Of a stretch of DNA of 45,266 nucleotides, positions 1-34,694 are shown piece by piece. Within the stretch, counting starts at the first letter, position 1; every line of letters begins with the position of its first letter. The position numbers and the translations under genes are program-made. A model generated the notes under the pieces. The model had not been told where the DNA came from, did no database searches, and saw only the letters and a program-made list of their open reading frames with translations. Source of the DNA: Acidobacteriota bacterium (lineage in GTDB: Bacteria; Acidobacteriota; Vicinamibacteria; Vicinamibacterales; UBA2999); assembly GCA_016190945.1 (NCBI GenBank), contig JACPPO010000089.1, positions 1 to 45,266 of the forward strand, written 5' to 3'.

Positions 1-682
1 GATGGCGAATTCCCTGAAGCCGGCCTCCCGGACAAGCGCGTCAGGCTTCGCTTCCAGCAGAGCACCAGCGATTCAACCCGTCCACAGATCGATCTTCTCC
101 TTCGCTGCAGCGGGCACCTCCTTCTGCACGAGGATGTCCGCGATCTGCAGGCGGCCCCCCGACTTCGGCACGCGCGCCATTTCCCGAAGCGCTGTTCGCC
201 TGTCTGGCATCAGGTTGAGGACGCCGCTGAAAATGACCACGTCGGCTCAGCCGCCTGCACCGGCAGCGCTTCGCCGTAGCCTTCACGAAACTCCGCGTTG
301 CTCAGCCCGGCTCCCGCGGCGGCGGCGCGGGCCTTCTCGAGCATGGAGAGCGTCATACCTACCCCGACCACCTGGCCGTCGGGCCTCACCATGCGCGCCG
401 CAGTGAGACTGTCAATGCCGCGCCGGCCCCGACCTCCACCACTCGCTCGCCGGGCTGCAACGGACCCAGAGACAACGGATTGCCGGTGCCAGCAAACGAT
501 TCAATGGAGGCGTCGGGCACTCCCTCCAGCCACTCGTCCGCGTGGCCGAGGAGCGCAGCCAACGGGCGTTCGGTGTGAAAGTGAAATCCGCGGTGCGGGT
601 CGCGCGCCACGACTTCCCACTCGTCACGGATGGCGGCGCGCAGCAGGTCACCATCGAGTTGGGGGAGCGTAAAGGTGGACAT
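1..682 (-). pseudogene. ArsM-like SAM methyltransferase, candidate selenoprotein, frameshifted and cut by window edge
   Basis: A class I SAM-dependent methyltransferase of the arsenite-methyltransferase type, read from ATG at 682. Visible parts are an N-terminal segment, the SAM-binding motif VVEVGAGAG, the acidic-loop region GQVVGVGMTLSMLEKAR, and VIFSGVLNLMPD. The frame slips by one base near 420 (inside GAGAGIDSL) and again near 247 (before ADVVIFSG). Restoring one base at each gives a continuous family-like protein. At 73-75 an in-frame TGA lies in WTG-x-IAGALLEA, where relatives carry a conserved cysteine. A SECIS-like hairpin follows, so the TGA may encode selenocysteine. The frameshifts could be real decay or assembly errors. 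The C-terminus lies beyond the window. The substrate (arsenite or another metalloid) is inferred from family resemblance only. Confidence 0.6.
45..63 (-). promoter_or_regulatory. SECIS-like hairpin after TGA of ArsM-like gene
   Basis: On the minus strand a stem with single-base bulges (GC-TC-GCT against AGC-GA-GC, one bulged U and one bulged A) is capped by the loop GGA. It starts 17 nt after the in-frame TGA at 73-75. Bacterial SECIS elements usually have a G in the first two loop positions and begin 16-37 nt after UGA. A bulged U is also present in the E. coli fdhF element. This is the weakest of the four hairpins because of its bulges. Confidence 0.4.
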
Positions 683-797
683 GGTCCAATCCAGCGCGCG
701 GGCCCGGCGTGGAAAGCGTCGCTGCTCGCGCGACCGCCCAGACGAACAGTACCAGCACGCCAAGCCCGACGATCCACCAGAGCCACATCCACGCCAT
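648..797 (-). CDS. small membrane protein, possibly a truncated SHOCT-type protein
   Basis: A 49-residue frame beginning MAWMWLWWIVGLGVLVLFVW, with one hydrophobic segment at about residues 4-24 and then a short polar tail. A purine-rich stretch GAGGTGA lies about 13 nt before the ATG. It overlaps the start of the downstream methyltransferase by 35 nt. The tryptophan-rich start followed by one membrane helix resembles small proteins that normally continue into a C-terminal SHOCT domain. No such domain remains here, so the gene may have been cut short by the neighbouring methyltransferase. Function unknown. Confidence 0.4.
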   Translation of the reverse strand: MAWMWLWWIVGLGVLVLFVWAVARAATLSTPGPRAGLDHVHLYAPPTRW

Positions 798-921
798 GTG
801 CGATCCGAAGTCACCTCACATACGGACAACCCTTCTTGAACATAGTCATATTGTGCCTCGTTACGTCAAGCGATCGAGTGATTGCCTCCAGGCCGGGACG
901 GGAGCGCGGCGCTGGCGCTGG

Positions 922-2559
922 CTAGAACCAGTGATGAAGCCACCACTGCTCGAATGTCACCTTGCCCCAGTGCCACAGACGCCCGGGCGGGAACATCCGG
1001 ACGTGCGGATCCGGCTCGGCGTAAAAGCGGCCGCTGGCGAAACCGGCCTTACCGTCGCCGAGCTCGATCCAGCAGGAGCCGTTCCCATCGAACGACGCTC
1101 GAGGCTGATGCCCACCGACCTCGGACGCGATCTGTGCAGCGACGACCTTGGCCTCGGCGTGGGCGAACACCCCTGCCTTCGGGAGCATCTTGCCGTTGGG
1201 CAGCCGGATGCTTGTGATGTCGCCGATGGCGAACACGCCCTCATGTTCAGTACGGAGAGTCTGCGGGTCGGCATGGATCCACCCCGATATGCCGACTAAC
1301 CCGGACGACCGAACAACCTCTGGCGCCCGATGGGGAGGCACTCCAAGGAGAAGGTCCACCTGCGTCGCGGAACCGTTGGAGGCGACGATCTCCCTCCGCT
1401 CGGGCCGCAGCTTCTCGAAGGTGTAAAGGGGGTGGTAGTGGATCCCACGCGCGCCAAGCATGCCAGCAATGGCTTCCCCAACCGCCGCTCCGGCGACCGG
1501 CATGGGCTGATGCTCAGGCGTGAAGAGATGGATCTCGGCCTTGTCCCGTATCCTCCTCTTGCGGCAAAACGCCTCAACGAGGAAGGCGGCCTCGTAGGGT
1601 GCCGCCGGGCACTTGAACGGCATGGAGGGGATGAAAACCCCGATGCTGCCGCCGCTGAACGCCTCCAGCGCGGCGTGAATTCTCTTGCTGCCCTCCAGGT
1701 CATAGAGGTTATAGGCCATGTCGTCGAAGCCCGCCACCGTGTCGGGCGCGAGTTGGGCGCCGAGCGAGACGACCAAGTAGTCGAAATCGAACGTCCTGGA
1801 CCGTGTCCGTACGACCTTGCGGCCGAGGTCAATCTCTTCGATGTCGTCCCGATGAAACTCGACGCCCTGATCGGCTAATCGTCCGAGCGGACGACGGATC
1901 TGGTGGTCCTGCCGCTGTCCCACCATGAGCCAGAGCAGGGAAGACGAAAACAGGTGGTCCGGCAGACGGTCGATCAGCACGACCCGGTGTTCTCTCGCGA
2001 GCCGCCGGCGGAGGTGGTATGCGGCCACGAGCCCTCCGGTACCACCTCCCAGAATGACGATGCGGGCGGCCTTGAATGAGGCTCGGCGCAGGATCGACCG
2101 TTCGGCGGACTTGGCCGCCGGCTGCTGTTCCACGGGTTCCCGGTAGAGTCCCGCGATGGCCTTGGTGTACCCGGCTTCGTCGAACTCGTTCTCCGAAAAG
2201 AGGACCGTGCCGTCGCGTCCGACGAGGATGTTGCAGGGCACCCAGCCGTTGGTGAGCTGCCGGAACAACACGCCGTCCGCATCAGGCACCACCGGACAAG
2301 CGAGGCCGAACCTCGCTTTCCACGCGTCACACGACTCCGTTGTCTCCAAGGCGCCTACGCAGACAACCTCGAAGCCCCGGGGTGCGAAACGATCGACTAC
2401 GCGGCCAATGGCAGGAGCCTCCTGCCGGCAGGTCAGTCACTGAGCCTTCCAGAACACGATGAGCACTCCGTCGGTGCCGTTGACCGGCAGGCCCGCGTCA
2501 CGCACGGCGATGCGCGCCCCTTTCGGGATGCCCTTAGATGCGCCATCAAGAACTTTCAT
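922..2559 (-). CDS. thioredoxin-like / sulfide:quinone oxidoreductase-type flavoprotein fusion, candidate selenoprotein (U41)
   Basis: Read through one in-frame TGA (2437-2439), this is a 545-residue protein. Residues 1 to about 145 form a TlpA/AhpC-like thioredoxin domain with VLIVFWKAQ-U-LTCRQEAPA, so TGA takes the first cysteine position of the redox motif (U41-x-x-C44), and later VPCNILVGRDG. Residues from about 165 form an FAD-dependent oxidoreductase of the SQR/flavocytochrome c sulfide dehydrogenase type: GGGTGG nucleotide-binding motif at 171-176, KCPAAPYE with a family cysteine at about 317, the FAD-binding segment VFAIGDITSIRLPNGKMLPK, and an aromatic C-terminus WWLHHWF. The ATG at 2559 has GGAGG five bases upstream. 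A rhodanese fragment lies just upstream, which suggests sulfide or polysulfide oxidation linked to a selenothiol relay. The function of the fused form is inference. Without recoding, the gene would be split, with the FAD part lacking a good start. Confidence 0.8.
2410..2426 (-). promoter_or_regulatory. SECIS-like hairpin after TGA of the thioredoxin-SQR gene
   Basis: A perfect 7-bp stem GGCAGGA/TCCTGCC is closed by the loop GGC on the minus strand. The loop begins 17 nt after the in-frame TGA at 2437-2439 and starts with G, matching the usual bacterial SECIS rules for loop base and distance. Confidence 0.65.
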
Positions 2560-2643
2560 CTGCCTCCGCGCTTTCCGCGAATTGCTACGTGGGCCTCGTC
2601 GGTTCTCACCCGTGCGCCACAACCCGCTCGAGCAGACTCCGCA

Positions 2644-2910
2644 TCATGACGATGCCTCCCCTTCCACAACTTCAAAGCCGCGCTGCTTCCATTGCCACAG
2701 GCTTTCGTCAAGGCGAAGCGCCCGGAAGCCGTGGTCCCTGAGCATCTGAACGGCGTCGATCGCGATGACGCAATACGACCCCCGGCAGTACGTGACGACT
2801 TCACGATCGGTTGGGATCTCGCCGAGTCGCCTCTTGAGCTCGGCAATCAGCACCGACAGGGCCCCGGGGATGTCGCAGAGGTCGGGTCGAAGGTATTCGA
2901 CGGTCCGCCC
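2644..2910 (-). pseudogene. rhodanese-domain fragment (5'-truncated)
   Basis: The frame encodes TVEYLRPDLCDIPGAL and then EVVTYCRGSYCVIAIDAVQ, a rhodanese (sulfurtransferase) domain with the active-site loop CRGSYC. An in-frame TAG at 2911-2913 precedes it and there is no good start codon before the GTG at 2853. In relatives this domain often follows an ArsR-type DNA-binding domain, which is absent here. The break falls in a GTAGGGGCGGACC string (2902-2914), a sequence I recognise from dispersed bacterial repeats. It lies 84 bp upstream of the SQR-type gene on the same strand. Probably a remnant of a sulfur-responsive regulator fusion, though it might be translated from the internal GTG. Confidence 0.65.
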
Positions 2911-2927
2911 CTACAAAGGCATGGAGC

Positions 2928-3257
2928 CTAAGGCTGTTGCGCCGGTACCTGTGGTGCCTCTGGTGCCTGCGCCGGTGCCTGTGGTGCCGCCTGCGGCGCG
3001 CGGCCGCCGACGACCGAGCCTGGTCCGCGCTGGCCGAGAATACCAAGGATCACGGCGCCGACAATGAACAGCACCGCGCCGATCGCGGTCGCTCGCGACA
3101 GCACGGTCGCGCCGCTGCGCGCGCCAAACGCCGCCTGGCTGCCGCCACCGCCAAAGGCGCTGGCAATGTCGCCCCCCTTGCCCTGCTGCAGCAGAATCAC
3201 CAGCATGAGCACGAGGCAGACGAGCACGTAAAGAACCGTTGTCAGGTAGTACAGCAT
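2928..3257 (-). CDS. secG: preprotein translocase subunit SecG
   Basis: A 109-residue membrane protein: first helix at about residues 3-24 (LTTVLYVLVCLVLMLVILLQ), the SecG signature QQGKGGDIASAFGGGGSQAAFG, second helix at about 55-75, and an Ala/Pro/Gln-rich cytoplasmic tail. SecG assists SecYE in protein export across the inner membrane. The low-complexity PQAPAQAPEAPQVPAQQ tail is longer than in enterobacterial SecG. The gene lies on the same strand as, and downstream of, tpiA-pgk-gap, an arrangement known from many bacteria. It has its own -10-like sequence upstream. Confidence 0.93.
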   Translation of the reverse strand: MLYYLTTVLYVLVCLVLMLVILLQQGKGGDIASAFGGGGSQAAFGARSGATVLSRATAIGAVLFIVGAVILGILGQRGPGSVVGGRAPQAAPQAPAQAPEAPQVPAQQP

Positions 3258-3284
3258 CTCATTGGCCTGCGTGTAGAAGGCACC

Positions 3285-3290
3285 ATTATA
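3285..3290 (-). promoter_or_regulatory. -10 element of the secG promoter
   Basis: A perfect TATAAT on the minus strand, 27 nt before the secG ATG. No convincing -35 hexamer is visible; TG directly precedes the hexamer. Confidence 0.45.
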
Positions 3291-3365
3291 CAGCCTAGAC
3301 CGGAAGTCCGCTGAAGCTGACCTCCAGCCAGCAGTGGGCTAGCCCACTACCCTCCAGCCAGCATT

Positions 3366-3527
3366 GGACCGCTGTACGGCTCGTTAGGAGAATCTTGTAC
3401 TCGTTATCTGAAGAAGCCGTATAGCGGTCCTGGCGCGCGGAGCGCGCCAAAAGAGACCGGCCAACCAGTCACGGGCTCGCTGCCACCCTGGCGAGATGGT
3501 CGGGATATCAAGGGCAGAGCCCGTGAC
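3366..3527 (-). repeat. three-hairpin intergenic repeat, copy A
   Basis: Read on the minus strand, three hairpins follow the tpiA stop. Hairpin 1 has an 11-bp stem (GTCACGGGCTC, 3517-3527, with 3468-3478) and carries CCCTTGATATCCCG in its loop. Hairpin 2 is GGCGCGC-TCC-GCGCGCC (3432-3448). Hairpin 3 is a 16-bp arm GGACCGCTATACGGCT (3415-3430) pairing with 3366-3381 with one mismatch. The same modules, in the same order, occur at 14561 and 31919. Hairpin 1 sits four bases after tpiA and could also end its transcription. Confidence 0.75.
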
Positions 3528-3530
3528 TCC

Positions 3531-4310
3531 TTAGTCGGCTCGCGCAGCGTCCCGACCGCGGCTCCGCATCACGATCTCCAGGAAGCGCCGGACATCCAGG
3601 CTCGCGCCACCCACCAGCGCGCCGTCCACGTCCGGCTGTGCGATCAGATCCGCAATGTTCTCCGGCTTCACGCTGCCGCCGTAGATGACGTGGCAGAGCT
3701 CAGCCGCATCCGGACCGAACCACTGGTGCAGCCGCTTCCGGATGTGACCGTGTGCCTCGCCCGCCTGCGCGGCGGTCGCGTTGCGGCCGGTCCCGATCGC
3801 CCAGACGGGCTCGTAGGCAATCACGAGCTGGCCGATCTGGTCCGAGGTGAGCGCGCCGAGCCCGTGGCGGATCTGCCGGTCGAGCAGGTCGAACGTCTCG
3901 TTGCGCTCGCGCTCGTCGAGCGTTTCGCCGATGCAGGCAATCGGGACCAGCCCGGCGGCGAATGCGGCGGCGACCTTCTGGTTCACGGTCGTGTCGGTCT
4001 CCCCGAACAGGCTGCGCCGTTCGGAGTGCCCGAGGATGACGTACGCCGCGCCGGCCTCCCGAATCATCGACGCGCTGACCTCGCCCGTAAAGGCGCCCTC
4101 GCGTTCCCAGTACACGTCCTGTGCCGCAATGCCCACTTTGCTGTTGCGCGCCGCCTCGGCGGCAGCATGCAGCGCTGTAAAGGGCGGCGCCAGCACAATC
4201 TCCACGCCCTCGACGTCCTTCACGAGGGCGCGCAGCTCTTTGACGTACTTCACGGCCTCCGCGACCGTTTTGTACATTTTCCAGTTGCCGGCGATAAATG
4301 GAATTCGCAT
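3531..4310 (-). CDS. tpiA: triosephosphate isomerase
   Basis: A 259-residue TIM barrel that interconverts dihydroxyacetone phosphate and glyceraldehyde 3-phosphate in glycolysis and gluconeogenesis. Motifs are GNWKMYKTV (substrate-binding Asn and Lys), ILGHSERR with the electrophilic His, VIAYEPVWAIGTG with the catalytic Glu, and the phosphate-binding IYGGSVKPENI and DGALVGGASL. Length is normal for the family. It follows pgk by 67 bp, a gap holding a CAAAGGTCAA hairpin, and completes a gap-pgk-tpiA-secG cluster. Confidence 0.97.
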   Translation of the reverse strand: MRIPFIAGNWKMYKTVAEAVKYVKELRALVKDVEGVEIVLAPPFTALHAAAEAARNSKVGIAAQDVYWEREGAFTGEVSASMIREAGAAYVILGHSERRSLFGETDTTVNQKVAAAFAAGLVPIACIGETLDERERNETFDLLDRQIRHGLGALTSDQIGQLVIAYEPVWAIGTGRNATAAQAGEAHGHIRKRLHQWFGPDAAELCHVIYGGSVKPENIADLIAQPDVDGALVGGASLDVRRFLEIVMRSRGRDAARAD

Positions 4311-4333
4311 AGAGAACTCTGTAAGTCAAAAGG

Positions 4334-4376
4334 CAAAGGTCAAAGGGTAAATGGCGCCGACACGACTTGACCTTTG
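4334..4376. repeat. small inverted repeat between pgk and tpiA
   Basis: CAAAGGTCAA (4334-4343) and its exact complement TTGACCTTTG (4367-4376) can form a 10-bp stem. A further GTGACCTTTGACC follows at 4381. It lies directly after the pgk stop on the minus strand. A similar AAGTTCAAAG/CTTTGAACTT pair lies between the two tRNA genes. It may be an intercistronic processing or attenuation structure. Confidence 0.5.
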
Positions 4377-4377
4377 A

Positions 4378-6587
<2,210 letters not shown>

Positions 6588-6630
6588 TCACGTCCTCCCT
6601 AGTGCGCGCACCAGGCTCGCAGAACGTCAA

Positions 6631-6661
6631 ATTGTACCCGACGCGCCTTGAACGGAGCCAA
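6631..6661 (-). promoter_or_regulatory. possible promoter of gap-pgk-tpiA
   Basis: On the minus strand TTGGCT and TACAAT are separated by 19 bp, with the start codon of gap 44 nt further on. Spacing is slightly long. It overlaps the oppositely directed waaA promoter. Confidence 0.4.
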
Positions 6662-6676
6662 TCGCGGCGTTATACT
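6648..6676 (+). promoter_or_regulatory. sigma-70-type promoter of the LPS operon
   Basis: TTGAAC and TATACT are separated by exactly 17 bp, 37 nt before the waaA GTG start. It overlaps the reverse-direction gap promoter, so polymerase binding at the two may exclude each other. Confidence 0.65.
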
Positions 6677-6713
6677 TCAACGATTGTAAGGCCCACATTT
6701 CCCACTATTTAGC

Positions 6714-8048
6714 GTGTATCTCCTTTATAGCTTCGTCACGCTGCTGACGCTCGTGGCCCTGTCTCCGTACTTCGTGTACCAGGCGCTGCGCCACGACAAG
6801 TACGTCGGCAGCCTGGGGCAGCGGCTCGGCTACCTGCCGGTGTCCCTGAACCTCGATGGCGACGACTCGATCTGGGTCCACGCCGTGTCGGTGGGCGAGG
6901 TGCTCGCCGCCCGGTCGCTCATTTCGGAGCTGCGCCGCCGCTACCCGCGGCTGCGTCTGTTTCTGTCGACGACGACGCGTGCCGGGCAGCAGCTGGCGCG
7001 GCGAAGCGTGACCGATGTCGACGGCGTGTTTTATTTTCCCTTCGACTGGACGTTCACGGCGCGGCGCACGCTAGCGCGGGTCAAGCCGCGGCTTTTCGTG
7101 ATGATCGAAACGGAGATCTGGCCGAACCTGCTGCGCGAGTGTCGGCGCCGGGGCGTCCGCACCGTCCTGGTGAACGGGCGGATCTCCTATCGGTCGTTTC
7201 CGCGATACCGGCTGATCCGGCCGTTTTTCCGCCGCGTCCTCGCCGATGTCGATCGCTTCTGCGTCCAGGGCGCCGAGGCGGCCAGACGCCTCGCGCAGCT
7301 TGGCGCCGACCCCGCGCGCATCACAGTGACGGGCAGTCTGAAATTCGATTCGCTCGATGTCATTCCCACGCCCGGCCGCGGCCGCGAACGCGTACTGCGA
7401 TTTTTCCGGATGTCCTCGAACCGGCCTGTCCTGGTTGCGGGCAGCACGCTCAGAGGCGAGGAAGAGCTGATCGTCCGCGCGTTCAACCGGCTGCGGACGA
7501 GCGGCAGTAACGCACTGCTCGTGCTGGCGGCGCGCCATCCCGAACGGTTCGCGGAAGTCGAGCGTCTGTGCCGCCAGGAAGGGCTCTCGACTATCCGCCG
7601 GACCGAATTGGCGATCGACGCCGAGCCTCGTGCTGACGCCGTCGTGCTCGACACCATCGGCGAGCTCGCGGAGGTCTATCAGGTTGCGACCCTCGTCTTC
7701 GTGGGCGGGAGCCTGGTGCGCGCGGGCGGCCACAACATCCTCGAGCCGGCGATGTTCGGCAAGCCCATCGTGTTCGGACCCCATATGGAGAACTTCGCGG
7801 AGATTGCGGAGACATTTCTGGCCAATCACGCCGCCGTCCAGCTGCGGTCCTGGCGCGAACTGGACGCCGTAATCCTGGGCCTGATGGGGGATCCGGTCCG
7901 CCGCGCGCGGCTCGGGGCCGCCGCGCGGGCGCTGGTCGAGGCCAATCGAGGCGCCAAGGACAGGACCCTGTCGGTCGTCGCCGAAGTGTTGCCGCCGCGG
8001 GACCGCGAGCACTTCGCCGTGGTCCGTCCCTTTCGCGTGATCCATTGA
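6714..8048 (+). CDS. waaA: 3-deoxy-D-manno-octulosonic acid (Kdo) transferase
   Basis: A 444-residue GT-B glycosyltransferase that adds Kdo from CMP-Kdo to the lipid A precursor at the cytoplasmic face of the inner membrane. An N-terminal membrane anchor (LLYSFVTLLTLVALSPYFVY) is followed by IWVHAVSVGEVLAARSLI, STTTRAGQQ, FPFDWTFTARRTL, MIETEIWPNLL, VLVNGRIS, and the C-terminal donor-site motifs FVGGSLVRAGGHNILEPA and GPHMENFAE. Starts with GTG. First gene of an operon in which nearly all genes overlap. Whether one or several Kdo residues are added cannot be told. Confidence 0.95.
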   Translation: MYLLYSFVTLLTLVALSPYFVYQALRHDKYVGSLGQRLGYLPVSLNLDGDDSIWVHAVSVGEVLAARSLISELRRRYPRLRLFLSTTTRAGQQLARRSVTDVDGVFYFPFDWTFTARRTLARVKPRLFVMIETEIWPNLLRECRRRGVRTVLVNGRISYRSFPRYRLIRPFFRRVLADVDRFCVQGAEAARRLAQLGADPARITVTGSLKFDSLDVIPTPGRGRERVLRFFRMSSNRPVLVAGSTLRGEEELIVRAFNRLRTSGSNALLVLAARHPERFAEVERLCRQEGLSTIRRTELAIDAEPRADAVVLDTIGELAEVYQVATLVFVGGSLVRAGGHNILEPAMFGKPIVFGPHMENFAEIAETFLANHAAVQLRSWRELDAVILGLMGDPVRRARLGAAARALVEANRGAKDRTLSVVAEVLPPRDREHFAVVRPFRVIH

Positions 8049-11140: not shown

Positions 11141-11153
11141 TGGAGGTCCCCGG

Positions 11154-12164: not shown

Positions 12165-12630
12165 GGTCCTCGGACGCGACGCGCTTGCGCAGCGGATTGC
12201 CCGGGACCGCGCGGCCGGCTTGAGCGTCGCGTTCGCCAACGGCTGCTTCGACCTGCTGCACGTCGGCCACATTCGCTATCTCGAATCGGCCGCCGCGGAA
12301 GGCGACCGCCTGATCGTGGCGATCAATGACGACGAGTCGGTGCGGAGCCTGAAAGGCGACGGGCGGCCAATCCTGGCTGCTGCGGACCGGGCGGAGCTCG
12401 TGGCGGCGCTGCGGTGCGTGGATTACGTCGTGATATTTTCCGAACCGACCGTCGGTCCGCTGCTGCAGGCGGTGAAGCCCGACGTCCACTGCAAGGGGAC
12501 CGACTACACCCTCGACACAGTCCCGGAACGCAGCATCGTCCAGGCTTACGGCGGCCGCATCGCCATCGTCGGCGACCCCAAGGACCATTCCACGCGCGAC
12601 CTGCTGGCACGCATCGGCGGGAGCACGTAG
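12157..12630 (+). CDS. hldC: D-glycero-beta-D-manno-heptose 1-phosphate adenylyltransferase (HldC/RfaE2)
   Basis: A 157-residue cytidylyltransferase-fold enzyme that makes ADP-heptose for the heptosyltransferases on either side. The nucleotidyl-transfer motif is FANGCFDLLHVGHIRYLESA, followed by VAINDDESVRSLKGDGRPI, DYVVIFSEPT, HCKGTDYT and the late STRDLLARI. GTG start overlaps the hldA stop by 8 bp. Normal length for the stand-alone form. Confidence 0.94.
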   Translation: MGEVLGRDALAQRIARDRAAGLSVAFANGCFDLLHVGHIRYLESAAAEGDRLIVAINDDESVRSLKGDGRPILAAADRAELVAALRCVDYVVIFSEPTVGPLLQAVKPDVHCKGTDYTLDTVPERSIVQAYGGRIAIVGDPKDHSTRDLLARIGGST

Positions 12631-13730: not shown

Positions 13731-14253
13731 CGTGCCGGTTCGGCTCACCAAAGCGCTTGCGCGAAAGCGGGTGTCGCTGGGCTTCGTTGCCGCGGCCGCA
13801 ACGCTGGTGCTGGCGCAGCCCACCTGGGAAGCGTGGCGCGCGGGTTTGCTTATCGCGTCCGGCGGCGAATGCCTCCGCCTGTGGGCGGCAGGGCATCTCG
13901 AGAAGAACCGTGAAGTCACGCGGTCCGGACCCTATCGGCTCCTGCGCCACCCGCTGTACGCCGGCTCGGCCCTGATCGCGATTGGCGTTGCCGTCGCATC
14001 ACGCAGCGTCGCCGCGGCGGTCGTGGCCGTGCTGTACGTGGGAGTGACCGTTGGCGCCGCGATTCGTTCGGAGGAGGCGCAGCTGCGGCACGCGTTTGGA
14101 TCGACGTATGACGACTACCGGGCATCGCGCGTCGAGCCGATGGTGCGGCGGTTCAGCCTCGCGCGGGCGCTGCGGAACCGCGAATACCGCGCGCTCGGCG
14201 GACTGATTCTGGGTTTCGCGCTGCTTGCGCTGAAGATTCTGGCGCCCCTATAA
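13723..14253 (+). CDS. isoprenylcysteine carboxylmethyltransferase-family membrane protein
   Basis: A 176-residue integral membrane protein with about four or five hydrophobic segments. The family motif is at residues 60-90: VTRSGPYRLLRHPLYAGSAL, followed by EEAQLRHAFGSTYDDYRA. Related ICMT/PEMT-fold proteins use SAM to methylate small or lipid substrates at membranes. Its place at the end of the LPS operon, overlapping the heptosyltransferase by 8 bp, suggests an envelope role, but the substrate is unknown. Its stop codon overlaps the -10 box of the tRNA-Val promoter. Confidence 0.85.
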   Translation: MADVPVRLTKALARKRVSLGFVAAAATLVLAQPTWEAWRAGLLIASGGECLRLWAAGHLEKNREVTRSGPYRLLRHPLYAGSALIAIGVAVASRSVAAAVVAVLYVGVTVGAAIRSEEAQLRHAFGSTYDDYRASRVEPMVRRFSLARALRNREYRALGGLILGFALLALKILAPL

Positions 14254-14254
14254 T
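14225..14254 (+). promoter_or_regulatory. promoter of tRNA-Val
   Basis: TTGCGC and a perfect TATAAT are separated by 18 bp, ending 63 nt before the tRNA. The promoter lies within the last codons of the preceding methyltransferase gene. Confidence 0.6.
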
Positions 14255-14317
14255 CAAGTGTTTGCTTGGGCTCGACAGCCGGTATCCGGGTTTGCCTCGC
14301 CGAAGCGAGGCGAAGGC

Positions 14318-14392
14318 GGGCGGTTAGCTCAGTGGTAGAGCACCGGCTTTACACGCCGGCTGTCACAGGTTCGAATCCTGTACCGCCCACCA
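14318..14392 (+). tRNA. tRNA-Val (anticodon TAC)
   Basis: A full 75-nt cloverleaf: acceptor GGGCGGT pairs with ACCGCCC, D-arm AGCTCAGTGGTAGAGC, anticodon stem CCGGC/GCCGG with loop TTTACAC (anticodon TAC), T-arm ACAGGTTCGAATCCTGT. The CCA end is encoded. Confidence 0.97.
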
Positions 14393-14415
14393 GAACAAGT
14401 AGGAAGTTCGAAGCA

Positions 14416-14480
14416 AAGTTCAAAGCAAGTGACAGACGACAGGGCTGCGCTTTTCACTTCGAAGTGTGAACTTTGAACTT
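14416..14480. repeat. small inverted repeat between the tRNAs
   Basis: AAGTTCAAAG (14416-14425) is complementary to CTTTGAACTT (14471-14480), ending six bases before tRNA-Asp. It resembles the CAAAGGTCAA pair between pgk and tpiA in base make-up and arm length. Confidence 0.45.
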
Positions 14481-14486
14481 GGATTA

Positions 14487-14563
14487 GGGGTCGTAGTTCA
14501 GTTGGTTAGAACGCCTGCCTGTCACGCAGGAGGCCGCGGGTTCGAGTCCCGTCGACCCCGCCA
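14487..14563 (+). tRNA. tRNA-Asp (anticodon GTC)
   Basis: A full 77-nt cloverleaf: acceptor GGGGTCG with CGACCCC, D-arm AGTTCAGTTGGTTAGAACGC, anticodon stem CCTGC/GCAGG with loop CTGTCAC (anticodon GTC), T-arm GCGGGTTCGAGTCCCGT, discriminator G and encoded CCA. Its last 26 nt before the final A recur with two changes at 27376-27401, so this gene may be the attachment end of an inserted block. Confidence 0.97.
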
Positions 14564-14702
14564 ACCAAACAGGCTCCGCCCTTGATATCCCGGCGGAGCC
14601 CTTGGCTGGTTGGCAGTGTCTGTTGGCGCGCTTCGCCCCTCGAACCGCTATACGGCTCTGGGCCGGGCCATACGAGTGCGAAATTCTCGTAAGGAGCCGT
14701 AT
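14561..14702 (+). repeat. three-hairpin intergenic repeat, copy B
   Basis: The outer stem CCAACCA/TGGTTGG begins with the CCA end of tRNA-Asp itself. Inside it a perfect 9-bp stem GGCTCCGCC/GGCGGAGCC holds the loop CTTGATATCCC (14581-14591). TTGGCGCGCTTCGC follows, and then a last hairpin ATACGGCTC (14650-14658) with GAGCCGTAT (14694-14702), whose loop contains the conserved CGAAATTCTCGTAA. The first hairpin could end tRNA transcription or guide 3' processing. Confidence 0.72.
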
Positions 14703-14812
14703 GCCATCCCACGTTGACGCACGTAGGTGTGAAGCAGCCGAGCGCGACCAGAATCGTTCCCGCGACGGACGTGTGGAACTGGCTGCGAGCCGTCATCGCC
14801 GGTGACGCGAGC

Positions 14813-14845
14813 AGTATGCACCCTGGAGCGTACTCCCAGGGGGTC
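14813..14845 (-). promoter_or_regulatory. orphan, partly decayed MerR-type promoter
   Basis: Palindrome CCTGGAG-CGTA-CTCCCAGG (14822-14840) with CATACT on the minus strand at 14813-14818. It closely resembles the intact MerR-type promoter at 17116 in palindrome core and -10 spacing, but the -35 (around GACCCC) is degenerate. It lies just downstream of merR, pointing to a stretch with no gene. About 285 nt (14571-14855) hold only this site and repeat copy B. It suggests a MerR-controlled gene was lost here. Confidence 0.5.
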
Positions 14846-14855
14846 GAGCGGCCTT

Positions 14856-15311
14856 TTATCGCTTTGTCGTCCTCAGCGTCTCGATGACCGGGCAGTCCGG
14901 CTCAGCGGGGGTCGCCCGCGCGCCGGCGCGACTGAGCGTCCGTTCACAGTCCTGGAAGTAGTCCGATAAGGTGCGCTGAAACTCCTGCAGCTCGACCAGC
15001 CTTGCCTGCAGTTCGGCCAGCTTCGCGCGCAGCATGTCGCGCACCTGGCGGCATCGCGTCAGGCCTCCGGAGGTCTGATATCCGAGAAGATCCCTGATCT
15101 CGTGGAGGGTGAGGCCCACCGACTGCGCTTGCTTGATGAAACGCAGCCGCTCGACGGCATCCGCCGTATACATGCGGAAGCCGCCGCCGGTGCGCGGCGG
15201 CTTCCGCAACAGCCCGACCCGCTCGTAGTAGCGAAGCGTGTCTGGTGTGACGCCGCTTCGCGCCGCAAGTTCGCCGATCTGGTAGATCTCGCCGGTTACT
15301 GCAGGCCGCAT
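14856..15311 (-). CDS. MerR-family metal-responsive regulator
   Basis: A 151-residue regulator. The winged-helix domain starts at IYQIGELAARSGVTPDTLRYYERVGLL, followed by RTGGGFRMYTADAVERLRFIKQAQSVGLTLHEIRDLL, a dimerisation helix, and three cysteines in TRCRQV, QDCERTL and PDCPVIE. These positions correspond to the mercury-binding cysteines of MerR, so Hg(II) or a similar soft metal is the likely signal. ATG at 15311 chosen as the last start before the conserved domain. Last gene of the mercury-type operon, 10 bp after the selenoprotein gene. Likely acts on the promoter at 17116. Confidence 0.88.
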   Translation of the reverse strand: MRPAVTGEIYQIGELAARSGVTPDTLRYYERVGLLRKPPRTGGGFRMYTADAVERLRFIKQAQSVGLTLHEIRDLLGYQTSGGLTRCRQVRDMLRAKLAELQARLVELQEFQRTLSDYFQDCERTLSRAGARATPAEPDCPVIETLRTTKR

Positions 15312-15321
15312 GACCTCTACC

Positions 15322-15873
15322 TCACGGTTGCCGCCGTGCCTCGAGGATAGCAGCAACCGACGGGCGGTCGGCAGGACCGGTGCCGACATGATGGAACCGC
15401 ACGATGCCCGCCGGATCGATGAGCACATCGCCCCCGAGCTGTCGCGTGTCGGCGCCGGAGTATTTCGGCAGCCGGCCGCGCGCGAGCTCTTTCATGTACG
15501 CCAGCCACGTCCTGACTCCCCAAATGTCCCGCAGGCGTCCCCGGTGCATGTCGTACCCCCGGTACAACGTGCGGTCGGGGTCAATGAGAATGAGCCACGT
15601 GACCATCGTTTCGGCGATGTACGCGCGAACGAACGGTGCCGCCTCGAATGTCACGACCACGGTCCGTATCCTTAAGCCGTCGAACGCCTGTTGGCGCTGC
15701 TGCAACTGCAGCAGGTGCCGGCGGCAGGGGAGTCACCCAAGGTGCCGGTGAAACACCAGCAGGAGCCATTCACCCTGATAGTCGGCCAGGCGGTGTATGC
15801 GCCCGTCCGCATCGGGCAATGCGAACGGAACCGCCGGCTTGCCCGTTCGCGGTCCCCTCACGCCTTGTGTCAC
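15322..15873 (-). CDS. AhpC/TSA-type thioredoxin-fold protein, candidate selenoprotein (U47)
   Basis: Read through one in-frame TGA (15733-15735) this is a 183-residue peroxiredoxin-like protein. GKPAVPFALPDADGRIHRLADY is followed by GEWLLLVFHRHLG-U-LPCRRHL, so TGA takes the first position of a redox U-x-x-C motif (U47, C50). Next come VVVTFEAAPFVRAYI, LIDPDRTLYRGYDM and LGGDVLIDPAGIVRFHH. The GTG at 15873 has AGAGGAAGGGG upstream; ATG at 15888 is an alternative. It sits between merP and merR on one strand (46-bp and 10-bp gaps). Probable thiol peroxidase or reductase. Its place inside a mercury operon suggests a redox or Hg-handling role, which is inference. Read conventionally it would be two meaningless halves. 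Confidence 0.82.
15697..15714 (-). promoter_or_regulatory. SECIS-like hairpin after TGA of the peroxiredoxin-like gene
   Basis: A perfect 7-bp stem CTGCTGC/GCAGCAG with the four-base loop AGTT on the minus strand. The loop starts 25 nt after the TGA at 15733-15735 and has G in second place, satisfying the usual bacterial SECIS rules. Confidence 0.65.
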
Positions 15874-15919
15874 GCCCCTTCCTCTCATGTGGGCGCCGTG
15901 CAACGTGTGCGCTCGGCAG

Positions 15920-16264
15920 TTAATCCCGCACCGCTGGTTCGGGCTCGGCGGTGAACCCGGTACCCTTCGTGATGGCCTCTGCAATGGCTCGCGGCGTGGT
16001 CTTGGCCGGATCGTATGCCACGCGGGCCTGATTTTCTTCGAGGCTGACGTCCACGTTCGTGACCCCGTCCAGCTTCCCGGCCGCCATCTTCACGGCAACC
16101 GCGCACCCGGCGCATGCCATGCCCTCCACGTTGATGATGCACGTGGCGCTCGTGTTCGCCCGGTCCGCAGCCACGACGTGGGGCCTCATGTTGGCAAGAG
16201 TCGCACCTCCAGCGGCCAGTCCGACCAGAAGCGTACCTCCTGCAAGCCACCTGTTCCACCGCAT
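15920..16264 (-). CDS. merP: MerP-like periplasmic heavy-metal-binding protein
   Basis: A 114-residue protein with an N-terminal signal segment (WLAGGTLLVGLAAGGATLA) and an HMA domain carrying the metal-binding GMACAGCA motif at about residues 48-55. The rest, VSLEENQARVAYDP and AIAEAITKGTGF, is typical of MerP and copper-chaperone folds. It would bind metal in the periplasm and pass it to MerT. AGGAGG precedes the ATG, and it lies 15 bp after merT. Mercury is the likely metal because of merT and MerR next to it. Confidence 0.9.
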   Translation of the reverse strand: MRWNRWLAGGTLLVGLAAGGATLANMRPHVVAADRANTSATCIINVEGMACAGCAVAVKMAAGKLDGVTNVDVSLEENQARVAYDPAKTTPRAIAEAITKGTGFTAEPEPAVRD

Positions 16265-16279
16265 ATCGGCCTCCTCGCT

Positions 16280-16609
16280 CTAGATAAACCACTTCACGTA
16301 ATAGGGGAAGGTCGCGAGCAGCACAACGACCGCCGCCGCAATCCACAGGAGCGTCGGGGCCATCTTGTTGGCGCGGGGATGGCAGTTTTGCCCGGGGCCG
16401 CACGCCTGGGCCGGTCCGCGACGGTAGGTGATGTAGAAACCTGCGACGAGAAGCGCTCCGGTTACGATCAGCAACAACGGTCGGAGCGGCTCCAAAGCGA
16501 CCGCGGCTGCCCCCAGCGCGCCAGCGCCAACGATCGAAAACAGGACGGGACCCAGGCAGCAGGCGGACGCGGCGACGGCTGCGACGATGGATGCGATGAC
16601 GGTTTTCAT
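16280..16609 (-). CDS. merT: mercuric transport protein MerT
   Basis: A 109-residue inner-membrane protein with three hydrophobic segments. The first helix carries the vicinal pair in ASACCLGPVLFSIVG, the signature of MerT. A second cysteine pair lies in the loop QACGPGQNCHP, and the last helix ends FPYYVKWFI. It moves Hg(II) into the cytoplasm. The ATG overlaps the upstream stop (ATGA), so it is translationally coupled to the metallochaperone. No mercuric reductase gene is present in the window. Confidence 0.9.
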   Translation of the reverse strand: MKTVIASIVAAVAASACCLGPVLFSIVGAGALGAAAVALEPLRPLLLIVTGALLVAGFYITYRRGPAQACGPGQNCHPRANKMAPTLLWIAAAVVVLLATFPYYVKWFI

Positions 16610-17094
16610 CTGTCTGTGCCCACCAAGGTTCGAACCGCTGCTGCGGCAATGCGCTTGACCGCCGCGCCAACATCCCCAAGACAGCAGACGCCGCGCGGAT
16701 TGCGGACCTCACACGCGCAGCGTCCTGCATCAATCTGTGCGCGGATGCGCTCGACCGCGTGCGACGCGCCGGTCGCGTGTATCTCTTCGCGAATACCCGC
16801 CTCGCCTTCACCGAAGCAGTAGCAAAGCATCCGGGCGCCGGCGGCTTCCTTCTGCCACACGGGAACCCGCACGTCGGCTGTCGAGTACGTCTCACCGCTG
16901 TCAGTGAAGTACACGACGTTGCACGCCGGATTGAGACAGAAACGGTGTGTCGAATCGGTGACCCGGCGCAGCGCCGACTCCGTCAGCAGTGCTTTGACAG
17001 TGAGAAGCTCCACGGTCCTGCCGGCCGTCCCGCTGATCGGACACGCGGCGCGCTGATTAGGGCCTTCCCGTCGGGCTGAGCCGTAGACGCACAT
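16606..17094 (-). CDS. CopZ-type iron-sulfur cluster-binding metallochaperone
   Basis: A 162-residue cysteine-rich protein: ACPISGTAGRTVELLTVKALL, FCLNPACNVVYF, VWQKE, MLCYCFGEGEAGI and CACEVRNPRGVCCLGDVGAAVKR. This matches the N-terminal domain of Archaeoglobus-type CopZ, which binds a 2Fe-2S cluster and zinc, and which recurs in mer operons. The usual first motif is C-P-x-C; here the second cysteine is serine (CPIS), so one metal site may be weakened. First gene after the MerR-type promoter, overlapping merT by 4 bp. Its redox role in metal delivery is inferred. Confidence 0.8.
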   Translation of the reverse strand: MCVYGSARREGPNQRAACPISGTAGRTVELLTVKALLTESALRRVTDSTHRFCLNPACNVVYFTDSGETYSTADVRVPVWQKEAAGARMLCYCFGEGEAGIREEIHATGASHAVERIRAQIDAGRCACEVRNPRGVCCLGDVGAAVKRIAAAAVRTLVGTDR

Positions 17095-17525
17095 GTTCGT
17101 CCTCGCGATGAATCCAGTGTCCACCCTGGAGTGCGCTCCAGAGTCAAGCCTCTTGTGGACGAGCACAGGCGGGGTGCACGTTCGCGGCCGATTGCCTCGT
17201 CGAGGGCCCGGCGCGCGGTCCTTGGCGGCAGCCGCCCGGAGCGCCGCCGGAGCGTCGCCGCAGATTCCACGCCGACAAATCGCTCGCGCACCCGACCGTT
17301 GGAAAACACCAGCAAGGTGGGGATTGAGGCGATGCGAAACCGCTCGGCCAGCTCCGGCTGCTCGTCGACGTTGACCTTGAGTACCCGCGCCCGTCCTGCC
17401 TCACCCCGGCCGATCTCCTCGACCATCGGCAGCTGCAGGCGGCAGGGGCCGCACCACGGCGCCCAAAAGTCCACGAGCACCGGAATGGAGCTGTGGAGGA
17501 TGTCGTGTTCGAATGTTGATTCCAT
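16983..17525 (-). CDS. thioredoxin-fold protein, C-terminus probably frameshifted
   Basis: The first ~90 residues are a clear thioredoxin: VLVDFWAPWCGPCRLQLPMVEEI with the WCGPC active site, KVNVDEQPELAERFRIASIPTLLVFSNGR with the cis-proline. After ATLRR at about residue 85 the frame departs from the family and runs 95 more residues through the mercury-operon promoter and into the metallochaperone gene. One base change after CGGCGG would give a normal helix end (ALRAAAAKDR) but would fuse the frame to the metallochaperone. The ATG at 17525 directly abuts repeat copy C and has only a weak ribosome-binding site. The gene is probably functional in its redox domain. Confidence 0.7.
   Translation of the reverse strand: MESTFEHDILHSSIPVLVDFWAPWCGPCRLQLPMVEEIGRGEAGRARVLKVNVDEQPELAERFRIASIPTLLVFSNGRVRERFVGVESAATLRRRSGRLPPRTARRALDEAIGRERAPRLCSSTRGLTLERTPGWTLDSSRGRTCASTAQPDGKALISAPRVRSAGRPAGPWSFSLSKHC
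17116..17147 (-). promoter_or_regulatory. MerR-type promoter/operator of the mercury operon
   Basis: On the minus strand TTGACT and GACACT are 20 bp apart, the stretched spacing of MerR-family promoters. The spacer holds the perfect palindrome CTGGAG-N4-CTCCAG (17126-17141). It lies 22 bp before the metallochaperone start, so the MerR gene at the operon end likely controls its own operon. Confidence 0.82.
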
Positions 17526-17526
17526 T

Positions 17527-17599
17527 GGACCGCGATGCGGCTCACCTACGCCTGGCGCACCGGCACTCGCCGACAATCGGGCAACACAACGGCTACGAA
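17527..17599 (+). repeat. three-hairpin repeat, copy C (fragment)
   Basis: 73 bp match 32043-32115 of copy D with only four differences, beginning GGACCGCGATGCGGCTCACC. The right-hand arm that would close the hairpin is missing, as the match stops before the conserved ATTCTCGTAA. It ends one base before the thioredoxin start codon, so it forms that gene's upstream region. Confidence 0.8.
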
Positions 17600-17679
17600 C
17601 TACCTGACACACAGTCTCTGGTCTGGATTCGCCGCGCCGTTACAGGCTGGAGATCCCGCGGGCCGCCCGACGACAAAGG

Positions 17680-17695
17680 TGTGAGGGACCTCACA
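17680..17695. promoter_or_regulatory. CRP-family binding site
   Basis: TGTGA-GGGACC-TCACA is a perfect copy of the CRP consensus TGTGA-N6-TCACA, extended to 8-bp arms GTGTGAGG/CCTCACAC. With the possible -10 TAACAT at 17735, its centre would be near -60 for the gene at 17895, the usual class I activator position. A CRP-family gene with a matching recognition helix lies 0.9 kb away. It may also affect the divergent thioredoxin gene. Confidence 0.7.
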
Positions 17696-17894
17696 CTTTA
17701 CAGAGGTCCGCGCGCGATCCGGAGCCGATTCGGATAACATAGCGACGGGATACACGCGTCAGGCGTAACGAAAGCAAGCCGTCGGAGACTAACGGAAAAG
17801 CAGGGGTTTCGCGTCGCTATCGCCGACCCGCCTTGTGCGACGCGAGCCAGTCCGTTCACCAAAGGGTACTGAAACGAAACGTACAGGAGGAACC

Positions 17895-18275
17895 ATGACG
17901 AACATCGTCCGGTCTGCCGCGCTCGTAGCCTTCGCGGCCGTTTTCGCCGTTGTGTCGCTTGGCGCGCAGACGACGTACGAGGGCACGCTGGTGGACAGCA
18001 AGTGTTACCTGGGGATGAATGAGACAGGCAACGATCATGGCCAGATGAAGGCCTGCGGCACCATGTGTCTGAAGGGAGGAACGCCTGCCGCGCTCTTGAC
18101 GAAGGAGAAGCAGTTTCACGCCCTGATCGCGCCGTCCGGCGCGCTTGCCGCTTACGTCGGGCAGCAGATTCGCGTCGTCGGGTCGCTGCACAACGGCGCG
18201 ATCCTCGCGAAGAGCGTGCAGGTAAACAAGGGCGGCCGGTGGGAAGAAGTGAAGCTCGGCGGGATGGCGGGATGA
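17895..18275 (+). CDS. small secreted cysteine-containing protein, function unknown
   Basis: A 126-residue protein with a clear signal peptide (SAALVAFAAVFAVVSLGA, cleaved before QTTYEG). The mature part has VDSKCYLGMNE, QMKACGTMCLKGGTPAALLT and an OB-fold-like C-terminal half (IRVVGSLHNGAILAKSVQV). The three cysteines, histidine and methionines could bind metal. AGGAGG lies four bases before the ATG. I do not know a named function. The CRP-type site upstream suggests regulation by the neighbouring CRP-family protein. Confidence 0.8.
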   Translation: MTNIVRSAALVAFAAVFAVVSLGAQTTYEGTLVDSKCYLGMNETGNDHGQMKACGTMCLKGGTPAALLTKEKQFHALIAPSGALAAYVGQQIRVVGSLHNGAILAKSVQVNKGGRWEEVKLGGMAG

Positions 18276-18384
18276 TATAGGTAGGAAGGTCATTCGGCGG
18301 AACGATCGCGAGGGTCGGTCGCGCCGAGGGCCGACTCCCTGCGCGTACGCAACCCAGAGGCTTCAATCCGAGAGTCCACGACGG

Positions 18385-18414
18385 CGCCACCTGCAGGACG
18401 GGCCGCAGGTGGCG
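18385..18414. terminator. hairpin between convergent genes
   Basis: CGCCACCTGC (18385-18394) pairs perfectly with GCAGGTGGCG (18405-18414) around a 10-nt loop. It lies between the stop codons of the secreted-protein gene and the CRP-family gene and could end transcription from both sides, although no T-run follows. The rest of 18276-18543 shows nothing coding. Confidence 0.4.
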
Positions 18415-18543
18415 TCCAGCCGAACTGTTGCGTTGCCCTTGAGCTTGCGCTAACGTCTGCCGCCGTGACGTTTTCGCAGGTACTTGAGCCGCCTGATGAT
18501 GCCACTCCGTTCGCTTCCGTTGCCGGCTCATGCGCCGGGTTTG

Positions 18544-19281
18544 TCAATTCGATCGGCGCGGTGAGTCCGGAGAACTCTCGCCTGTCGCGGGCTGGGCGGC
18601 GATCCATCGAAGTCGTTCGGGATCGCGCAGCCGGACGCTGCGGCGATCCATCTCCAGCAGGTTCTGCTCGCGCCATTCCTGCAGGATCGCGTTCACCGTT
18701 TCGCGGCTGAGGCCGACGAGGCGTCCCAGGTCACCTTGACTCAGCCTGAGCGAGATGAGTACGCCGTCGGTATCGGGGACACCATGGCGGTCAGCCAGCT
18801 CGAGCAGCGCGTGCGCGACACGGGCATGAGCACTCTTGCAGAGCAGCTCTTCGACGCGCGACTTCAGCGTCCGAATGCGGAGCCCAATCAGCTTCGTGAT
18901 CTGAAACCCAACCTCCGGCGTCTCGCGAATCATGCGCATGATCGTGTCCCGGCTCATCGCACAGATGACGCAGTCGTCGTACGCCTCGGCCATGTGATCG
19001 CGCGGGGCATCGTCGACGACCGCCAGCTCGCCAAAAATATCGCCTGGATGCAGGAAGGCGAGGATGACCTGGCGATCGTCAAGCGTTCTAGCCGAGATCT
19101 TGATGACGCCGCTCTTGAGCAGGAAGATCTGGTCGCTTGGATCGCCCGGCAGATAGATCTGTGTCCCGCGCTTGACTTCGAGCATCCGGGTGACCTTCCC
19201 GAGCTGCTGCCGTTGGGCATCGTTCAGCGCCGAGATCAGTCGAAACCGCTCGAAGTACCACAGCTTGGTATGCACAGGCAT
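18544..19281 (-). CDS. CRP/FNR-family transcriptional regulator
   Basis: A 245-residue regulator. An N-terminal cyclic-nucleotide-binding-type beta-roll (RGTQIYLPGDPSDQIFLLKSGVIKI, FLHPGDIFGELAVVDD) is followed by a long dimerisation helix and a winged helix-turn-helix LSQGDLGRLVGLSRETVNAILQEWR. The recognition helix R-E-T-V matches CRP, which reads TGTGA. The FNR-type N-terminal cysteine cluster is absent from the chosen ATG onward. A perfect TGTGA-N6-TCACA lies at 17680 and a near match at 19594. The effector cannot be told. Confidence 0.9.
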   Translation of the reverse strand: MPVHTKLWYFERFRLISALNDAQRQQLGKVTRMLEVKRGTQIYLPGDPSDQIFLLKSGVIKISARTLDDRQVILAFLHPGDIFGELAVVDDAPRDHMAEAYDDCVICAMSRDTIMRMIRETPEVGFQITKLIGLRIRTLKSRVEELLCKSAHARVAHALLELADRHGVPDTDGVLISLRLSQGDLGRLVGLSRETVNAILQEWREQNLLEMDRRSVRLRDPERLRWIAAQPATGESSPDSPRRSN

Positions 19282-19593
19282 CCTAACGTTCGAGTTGACG
19301 CACAGGTGAATCTGAAGGTCGGAGCAGCCGCGCGAACAGCCCAAATGAGAAATTCGGCGATGGCGCGCAAAGGTTACGGCGGCCTCATATCGACCGCGAT
19401 CTCGCGGTGCCGCGCCCCGACGATCTTACAGGCGAAACCGTGGTCCAGGCCACAGTTCGTGGGGCTGCCCGACCGGGAACGTCTTGCCGCCCCGCCTCCG
19501 CCACGTCGGGTCGCTTGCGCCCCGACAGCCAGTTCTGGCTAACTAGGCGGTCCGTTGCGCGGCGGCGCGGCGGCGCGTCGAATGTCGGGTATC

Positions 19594-19609
19594 TGTGCCC
19601 TATCTCACA
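19594..19609. promoter_or_regulatory. second CRP-like site, in the gap between crp-family gene and DUF3179 gene
   Basis: TGTGC-CCTATC-TCACA matches nine of ten CRP consensus bases. It lies about 310 bp before the CRP-family gene and 200 bp before the DUF3179 selenoprotein gene, which are divergent. Otherwise the 530-bp interval 19282-19810 shows no convincing gene or promoter. Confidence 0.45.
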
Positions 19610-19810
19610 CGAAGCGAACCGGCGGCGGGCGATTCAGGGCGTCACGCGGCCGTTCGACGAGACAGTGAAGGCAAGCCCGGGCTCGGCGCCCGGTCCGGGC
19701 GTCGGCACTTGCCAAGGGGCCACCGGACTGCGGGCGAGTTCACATATGATCGTTCGCTGCAACGCGTGTGAACAGTGTAAGGGCGAGAATTGTGCGTGGA
19801 GGTCTCAACG

Positions 19811-20842
19811 ATGCTGATCCGAGTGTTCATCGTCCTCGCCACGACGGCGGCGGCTGTGGCCCTCGCGGCCGCACAGGAACCAGACAGAATCGAGATCGTG
19901 CTGCCGCGCGACGCGATTCCGACGATCGACAAGCCCGAGTTCGAGCCGGCGGACAAGGCCGACCGGGTCATGGCCAATGAGGAGCTCGTGATCGGCCTCG
20001 TCGGTACGCGTGAGCGACGGGCCTACTCGACATGGCAGCTCGATCGTCATGAGATCGTCAACGACGTGTTCGAGGGGAGACCGATTGCGGTCACGTGGTG
20101 ACCGCTCTGTGGCACTGGCATCGTGTATGCCAGAGAGGTCGCAGGTCGCACGCTTACGTTCGGCGTGTCAGGCATGCTGTACAAGGATGGCCTCGTGATG
20201 TACGACCGTCAGACCGACACGTTATGGACGCAGGTCGACGGGCGTGCCGTGCGCGGGTCGCTGAACGGGCGACAGCTTGAGATCGTGCCAGCAGTACACG
20301 CCACATGGAAGGAGTGGCTCGCGCTCTATCCGGGCAGCCAGGTGCTTAGGAAGAATGGGGAGTTCCGTTCATCGTATGAGAACTACAACCGGAATCCCGG
20401 GGAGCTCGGCATCATGGGACGCCGCAACACGGACGACCGTCTGCCCGGAAAGGAGCGCATCCTCGGCATACGGGTCGGCGGTGCGGCGATGGCGTTCCCG
20501 CTGAAATCCGTGCGTGGAGGCCGGCTCGCGCAGGCGGACGTGGGCGGGATACCGGTGCTGCTGGCCGCGCCCACGGCCGACCTGCCTGTGCTCGCGTACG
20601 AGCGGCGAGCGCGCTCACGCACGCTGACGTTCCGGATCGAAACGGCGGGCGGCAGGTCCGTGCTGCGCGACGTCGAAACGAACAGCACCTGGGATGTCGC
20701 GACAGGAACGGCGCTGTCCGGCCCGATGGCCGGCGCGCAGCTGCCTCGCGCGACCGCCTATCCGGCGTTCTGGTTCGGCTGGCGCGGCTACTTTCCGGCG
20801 ACCGGCGTGTGGCAGCGTTCGAAGGAGCAGCCGCGAAAGTAG
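19811..20842 (+). CDS. DUF3179-family protein, candidate selenoprotein (U97)
   Basis: Read through one in-frame TGA (20099-20101) this is a 343-residue exported protein: signal peptide LIRVFIVLATTAAAVALAAA, then RIEIVLPRDAIPTIDKPEF, NEELVIGLV, and the family core GRPIAVTW-U-PLCGTGIVY, where relatives have C-P-L-C. Later LYKDGLVMYDRQTDTLWTQ, WKEWLALYPGSQVL and YPAFWFGWRGYFP are also family features. GGAGG lies 8 nt before the ATG. Sec at the first position of the CxxC pair implies a redox or metal-binding role in the periplasm. I recall selenoproteins being annotated in this family. The function of DUF3179 is unknown. Confidence 0.85.
20115..20133 (+). promoter_or_regulatory. SECIS-like hairpin after TGA of the DUF3179 gene
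   Basis: A perfect 7-bp stem CTGGCAT/ATGCCAG with the loop CGTGT. The loop starts 20 nt after the TGA at 20099-20101 and has G in second place. The stem can be prolonged alternatively by CTCTGTGGCA with TGCCAGAGAG. Confidence 0.6.

Positions 20843-33677: not shown

Positions 33678-34694
<1,017 letters not shown>

Follow-up and report, generated by a model that had tools for sequence, protein, structure and literature searches.

Four in-frame TGA codons in the window, as we call the whole 45,266-nucleotide stretch of contig JACPPO010000089.1 analyzed here (Acidobacteriota bacterium, assembly GCA_016190945.1), very probably encode selenocysteine (Sec, or U), judging from sequence comparison. 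They are located at 75 to 73, 2439 to 2437 and 15735 to 15733 on the minus strand and at 20099 to 20101 on the plus strand, and in all cases family similarity goes on past the TGA. The first lies in an arsenite methyltransferase-like gene (arsM-like, motif WTG-U-IAGA), the second in a fusion of a ResA-like domain with a sulfide:quinone reductase (SQR; AQ-U-LTC), the third in a gene for a SelL-related redox protein (LG-U-LPC), and the fourth in a DUF3179 gene (TW-U-PLC). An initial annotation of this DNA had placed TGAs at 73, 2437, 15733 and 20099 in continuing frames, and these positions were confirmed, those on the minus strand being the lowest base of the codon. It had also described the four families as unrelated; this goes too far, since the codons at 2437 and 15733 both belong to thioredoxin folds of the AhpC/TSA type. 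Its argument that conserved cysteines would not be hit four times at random found support in a post hoc estimate of about 4e-9 for four random TGAs all falling on conserved Cys/Sec columns (1160 codons and about 9 such columns, by our own count).

The homologues are the best-scoring loci out of a larger number of matches (30 per search plus 37 extra), and U is probably over-represented among them; the genome sample comprised 149 genomes (148 besides the window's own). The column counts refer to distinct sites with the window included, leaving out sequences of less than 60 nt, those identical over 66 nt and those not covering the Sec column. At the TGA column, 19 U and 12 C were observed for ArsM (31 sites), 26 U and 2 C for SelL (28 sites), and 28 U, 35 C and 1 S for DUF3179 (64 sites), the single Ser being that of L185, an Opitutaceae record with a 27% identical protein. 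The fusion showed U in all three sequences available (the window, L050 and L189). The prediction that relatives carry Cys at the TGA held for ArsM, SelL and DUF3179, one Ser apart, while the column of the fusion contained only U; overall, each of these columns held UGA or Cys in the homologues, with that one exception.

The genome also contains the genes for Sec decoding, in agreement with the claim that this lineage uses Sec. In profile searches, selA, selB and selD were found consecutively at positions 4671 to 8993 of contig 132, each above its curated cut-off (TIGR00474, 588.7 bits versus 267.9; TIGR00475, 401.8 versus 242.25; and TIGR00476, 383.9 versus 125, respectively). selD has one in-frame TGA itself, falling in AAAG-U-ASKL, which we take to be the usual Sec site of SelD. 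Among the 148 other genomes, selB was above the cut-off in 44 of the 52 with a UGA form and in 61 of the remaining 96 (p=0.005), a UGA-form genome being one with a fetched UGA form of ArsM, SelL or DUF3179 and genomes with unfetched matches being counted among the rest; genomes without selB number 43 by our reading of the list and 42 as implied by the tally. Excerpts of PMC12013277 list an Acidobacteriota species among Sec-utilizing bacteria. By the mechanism proposed here, SelA and SelD would make Sec-tRNA(Sec), which SelB would deliver to the ribosome at a UGA with a hairpin directly 3' of it (the bacterial Sec insertion sequence). In ArsM (WTG-U), in the two thioredoxin-fold UxxC proteins and in DUF3179 (UxxC), Sec would then stand in for the reactive Cys.

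A genome-wide reassignment of TGA to Cys or Trp, that is, a variant genetic code, would fit the Cys found at the TGA columns in relatives. Because TGA is the stop codon of 15 of the 20 long open reading frames (ORFs) and the tRNA-Trp found has the anticodon CCA, no global reassignment is apparent; moreover, the same ORFs hold 73 TGC or TGT Cys codons, and selB is present. A variant code is consequently regarded as extremely improbable, and Sec at four particular codons is preferred.

The hairpins expected downstream of a Sec codon were searched for with a loop of 3 to 14 nt and a G required in its first two bases. Since the search itself required that G, its presence does not constitute independent evidence, and the support that the initial annotation had drawn from it falls away. 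The annotation had further reported a hairpin after each TGA, and this stood for two of the four codons. The SelL hairpin reached −22.2 kcal/mol, a value equaled by 2 of 60 shuffles and by none of 25 dinucleotide shuffles, and that of DUF3179 reached −20.1 kcal/mol (1 of 60 and 0 of 25, respectively); those following 2437 and 73 did not stand out and are considered below. At the level of families, hairpins were more stable in U than in C sites both for ArsM (median, −18.6 versus −11.2, p=1.6e-5; relative to shuffles, p=2.7e-5) and for DUF3179 (median, −17.8 versus −11.2, p=2.5e-5; relative to shuffles, p=5e-4). For its part, SelL gave p=0.011 for the energies, with only 2 C sites. All these Mann-Whitney tests take related sequences as independent.

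Selection acting 3' of the TGA was estimated from pN/pS values, in a set that leaves out the L020 row. Downstream values were 0.24 to 0.39 for DUF3179, SelL and the fusion, and 0.45 to 0.46 for ArsM, with only 24 codons; upstream values ranged from 0.20 to 0.70, the downstream value being slightly higher than the upstream one in SelL and ArsM and lower in the fusion. Such purifying selection past the codon supports translation beyond the TGA. It also bears on a second explanation, in which gene decay through nonsense mutation, or sequencing error, produced the TGAs. The arsM-like copy, twice frame-shifted and at the contig edge, would suit that explanation, as would a possible truncated rhodanese-like remnant at about 2640 to 2886, judged from sequence. 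However, in all four genes it is only TGA, and no other stop, that lies on the Cys/Sec column; the same TGA is conserved in many relatives for all four codons; and the frames at 922 to 2559, 15313 to 15888 and 19811 to 20842 are otherwise intact. Given these intact frames, the conserved TGA and the purifying selection, decay was dropped as an explanation for three of the four genes, and for the set as a whole we consider it very unlikely. Read as a stop, TGA would break these three genes, as the initial annotation had warned when it stated that all four would be misread as pseudogenes; the arsM-like copy is also frame-shifted and may be a true one.

Several results weigh against Sec at these codons. 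Neither an RF01852 search (150 of 278 first-look candidates scored) nor ARAGORN detected a tRNA-Sec in the assembly, which is 78% complete, and none turned up upstream of selA with ARAGORN and lax filters around that gene; RF01852 gave five matches, which correspond to tRNA-Leu, -Trp, -Ser, -Gly and -Lys. Of the genes that the initial annotation proposed to look for, the three sel genes were therefore recovered and tRNA-Sec was not. Still, of the two checks that the annotation had named as able to overturn its reading, that of the decoding genes and that of the Cys/Sec columns, neither did so. selB did not exceed the cut-off in 8 of the 52 UGA-form genomes, no Cys counterpart of the whole fusion was found among the relatives searched, and the arsM-like copy is interrupted by frame shifts. 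The hairpin of the fusion (−16.0 kcal/mol) was equaled by 20 of 60 shuffles and 4 of 25 dinucleotide shuffles, and that of the window arsM-like gene (−11.6 kcal/mol) by 40 of 60 and 21 of 25; relative to shuffles, SelL hairpins did not differ between U and C sites (p=0.35, with only 2 C sites).

The failure to find tRNA-Sec would also suit leaky readthrough of UGA, yielding two products and no Sec. Nevertheless, selA-selB-selD is intact, the columns alternate with Cys, and in ArsM and DUF3179 hairpins accompany UGA more than they accompany Cys, and we give readthrough hardly any credence. With Sec as the preferred reading, the simplest explanation for the missing tRNA-Sec is an assembly gap. 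In the relatives, the loci that scored best when the 149 genomes were searched were fetched, and ARAGORN found tRNA-Sec (anticodon TCA) in all 12 of them; selA was on the same piece in the four loci compared, all from genomes of the same family, and tRNA-Sec lies elsewhere in some relatives, G012 having it on a different contig from selB. We infer that Sec is actually inserted and that the tRNA-Sec gene is among the sequence absent from the assembly. The assembly amounts to 1.96 Mb in 158 contigs, the window being contig 67 from base 1 on.

The fusion gene (positions 922 to 2559, minus strand) encodes 545 amino acids. Residues 28 to 130, approximately, form a ResA/AhpC-TSA-like UxxC domain (PF00578), matching AhpC-TSA and Redoxin models and ResA structures, and residues 166 to 545 form a type III SQR (PF07992), matching sulfide:quinone reductases and flavocytochrome c sulfide dehydrogenase, the structural matches being by PDB sequence. 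The predicted Sec codon (2437 to 2439, KAQ-U-LTC), with U in relatives, belongs to the N-terminal domain, being codon 41 of the gene. Full-length fusions were present in the genome under study, in G026 (L050, 71% identity) and in G285 (L189, 58% over 549 positions), the last being listed only as of the same phylum, and G058 holds a C-terminal piece. The search covered the 149 relatives (own genome included), 396 genomes from the phylum and 38 from the class to which G285 belongs. Among 72,556 plasmid records, 186 matched, but in no case over 80% of the query. In an alignment of 25 sequences Cys317 did not vary and Cys496 hardly did, and both were invariant in a set of 15. These two Cys of the SQR part would be reduced, or have sulfur taken from them, by the UxxC domain. 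A structure model of the fusion had a mean pLDDT (per-residue confidence) of 83 but was of low confidence for the linker and the N-terminal domain, and therefore was not used for geometry.

In a literature search, the titles and abstract openings listed (12 of 306 papers) contain no such fusion, which is no proof that it is undescribed. We tentatively propose, with somewhat less than even confidence, that 922 to 2559 represents a selenoenzyme architecture not yet described, in which a UxxC domain resembling ResA is joined to a type III SQR, directly upstream of Sec-ArsM. It would link the reduction of membrane quinones with a thiol or persulfide (or arsenical) redox step based on Sec, and would be rare in Acidobacteriota and probably horizontally passed. 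The fusion provides a concrete link between Sec chemistry and sulfide:quinone reduction. In G026, the gene adjoining the fusion (L050, about 619 to 1425, minus strand) was judged from its sequence to encode an ArsR-type regulator with a rhodanese domain.

The arsM-like gene (positions 1 to 682, minus strand; NF008823) has lost its 3' part at the contig edge, and its predicted Sec codon (73 to 75, LWTG-U-IAGAL) falls on a U/C column. Its reading is spread over three frames, with shifts near 420 and near 245. The 81-residue piece at 1 to 243 of this broken and truncated gene was the part scanned with NF008823, and it scored 77.8 bits versus a cut-off of 263. Because of the frame shifts, the copy may be decayed, a true pseudogene, or mis-assembled through errors near the contig edge. 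In L110, from a genome (G058) of another family of the order, the corresponding DNA is 88% identical over about 690 bases, with an open frame and one TGA, and its ArsM gene directly follows a 94% identical end of the SQR part of the fusion. UGA-form ArsM and SQR matches were present on one contig in G041, G128 and G058. Window positions 1 to 691 and 899 to 1208 showed 88 to 93% DNA identity to the G058 contig. So high an identity across families at 1 to 1208 suggests that the DNA was transferred horizontally or that one contig was misbinned.

The SelL-related gene (15313 to 15888, minus strand) encodes 191 amino acids and exceeded the NF040769 cut-off (181.3 bits versus 120). Its predicted Sec codon (15733 to 15735, HLG-U-LPC) lies on a U/C column, and the loop of the hairpin after it begins 25 nt further 3'. 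The DUF3179 gene (19811 to 20842, plus strand) encodes 343 amino acids and matched the whole PF11376 model with 272.8 bits (cut-off, 27); its predicted Sec codon (20099 to 20101, VTW-U-PLC) also falls on a U/C column, the hairpin loop starting 20 nt downstream. UGA forms of both genes occurred together on one contig in G026, G012 and G054 as well.

With the exception of the fusion, the TGA-bearing genes are correct detections of known kinds of selenoprotein. DUF3179 (UxxC/T), arsenite methyltransferase and the Prx-like PF00578 proteins with UxxC are listed as selenoproteins in excerpts of PMC9312934 and PMC13188914, and SelL (Prx-like) and ArsM are named as such in an excerpt of PMC2398784. 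The arsenite methyltransferase selenoprotein (NF008823, with the variants NF041536 and NF041537) shares with the window copy a Sec that takes the position of the conserved Cys, within UxxG, a motif given in PMC13188914, whereas PMC9312934 gives the family without it. The window copy differs in being frame-shifted and truncated, and any AhpD, DUF2284 or UXPK extension would lie beyond the contig start. SelL shares the UxxC thioredoxin fold of NF040769 and PF00578 above the cut-off, and the only difference seen was that the window gene adjoins HMA (heavy-metal-associated), MerT and CopZ-like metal genes; DUF3179 shares the UxxC/T motif of PF11376, with no essential difference. SQR_III_seleno (NF049943), in contrast, has HxxU as its listed Sec motif in PMC13188914, presumably within the SQR, whereas the only TGA of the fusion lies in the added N-terminal ResA-like domain, outside the SQR part. 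The fusion scored 232.5 bits, under the NF049943 cut-off of 525, its SQR module matching 350 of 406 model positions. The window adds an Acidobacteriota lineage rich in UGA-form relatives: 52 of the 148 other genomes sampled had at least one UGA-form ArsM, SelL or DUF3179 among the fetched loci. The genes would have roles in arsenic methylation and in thiol redox reactions beside the MerT/HMA-like metal genes.

A codon-bias scan of 1052 TGA triplets on both strands kept 7, 3 of them from the four genes, and a relaxed scan kept 19, including all four TGAs. No additional Sec gene was established in the window by these scans, which may miss short or atypical genes. By their coordinates, 13 of the other 15 TGAs lay on the strand opposite a long ORF or opposite one of the four genes, and the one at 29238 (plus strand) was a stop at a gene junction. 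The one at 34379 (minus strand) is in frame, just 5' of an ORF start at 34364.

Around SelL, a MerR-family regulator gene (14856 to 15428, minus strand; PF13411 and PF09278) overlaps its end. On the other side, and also on the minus strand, are genes for an HMA protein (15920 to 16264; PF00403), a MerT-like transporter (16280 to 16609; PF02411, 58.9 bits) and an iron-sulfur metallochaperone resembling the CopZ N terminus (16606 to 17166; NF047645, 125.2 bits versus a cut-off of 100). No in-frame TGA was found in these HMA, MerT, CopZ-N-like and MerR genes, and the HMA copies in G026 and G054 likewise lack one. Elsewhere in the genome (G000:C21:9147-9347), another SelL-like fragment was observed that also has an in-frame TGA and is 69% identical over residues 2 to 68.

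The structure model of the DUF3179 protein (mean pLDDT, 92.7) gave Rieske-type ferredoxins at ranks 1, 3 and 5 of the PDB fold matches, with E values of 0.012 to 0.022, none reaching 0.001, a Foldseek probability of 1.00 and 91 to 106 aligned columns; in this model, a Rieske-like fold for the uncharacterised DUF3179 family is only hinted at. The six best named relatives of the protein were assemblies labeled "Acidobacteria bacterium", and groundwater was the source of four.

Five of seven compared locus pairs were the same DNA as loci in G004, G012, G026, G053 and G054, of which G004, G012 and G026 are listed in the same family as the window genome. Together with the named relatives of the DUF3179 protein, these matches place the window in Acidobacteriota. 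Window positions 3363 to 3475 and 14572 to 14690 were similar to sequence close to the DUF3179 and SelL genes of relatives. Two pairs of repeats were also present in the window, 17527 to 17599 with 32043 to 32115 (95% identical) and 14571 to 14624 with 31928 to 31981 (85%).

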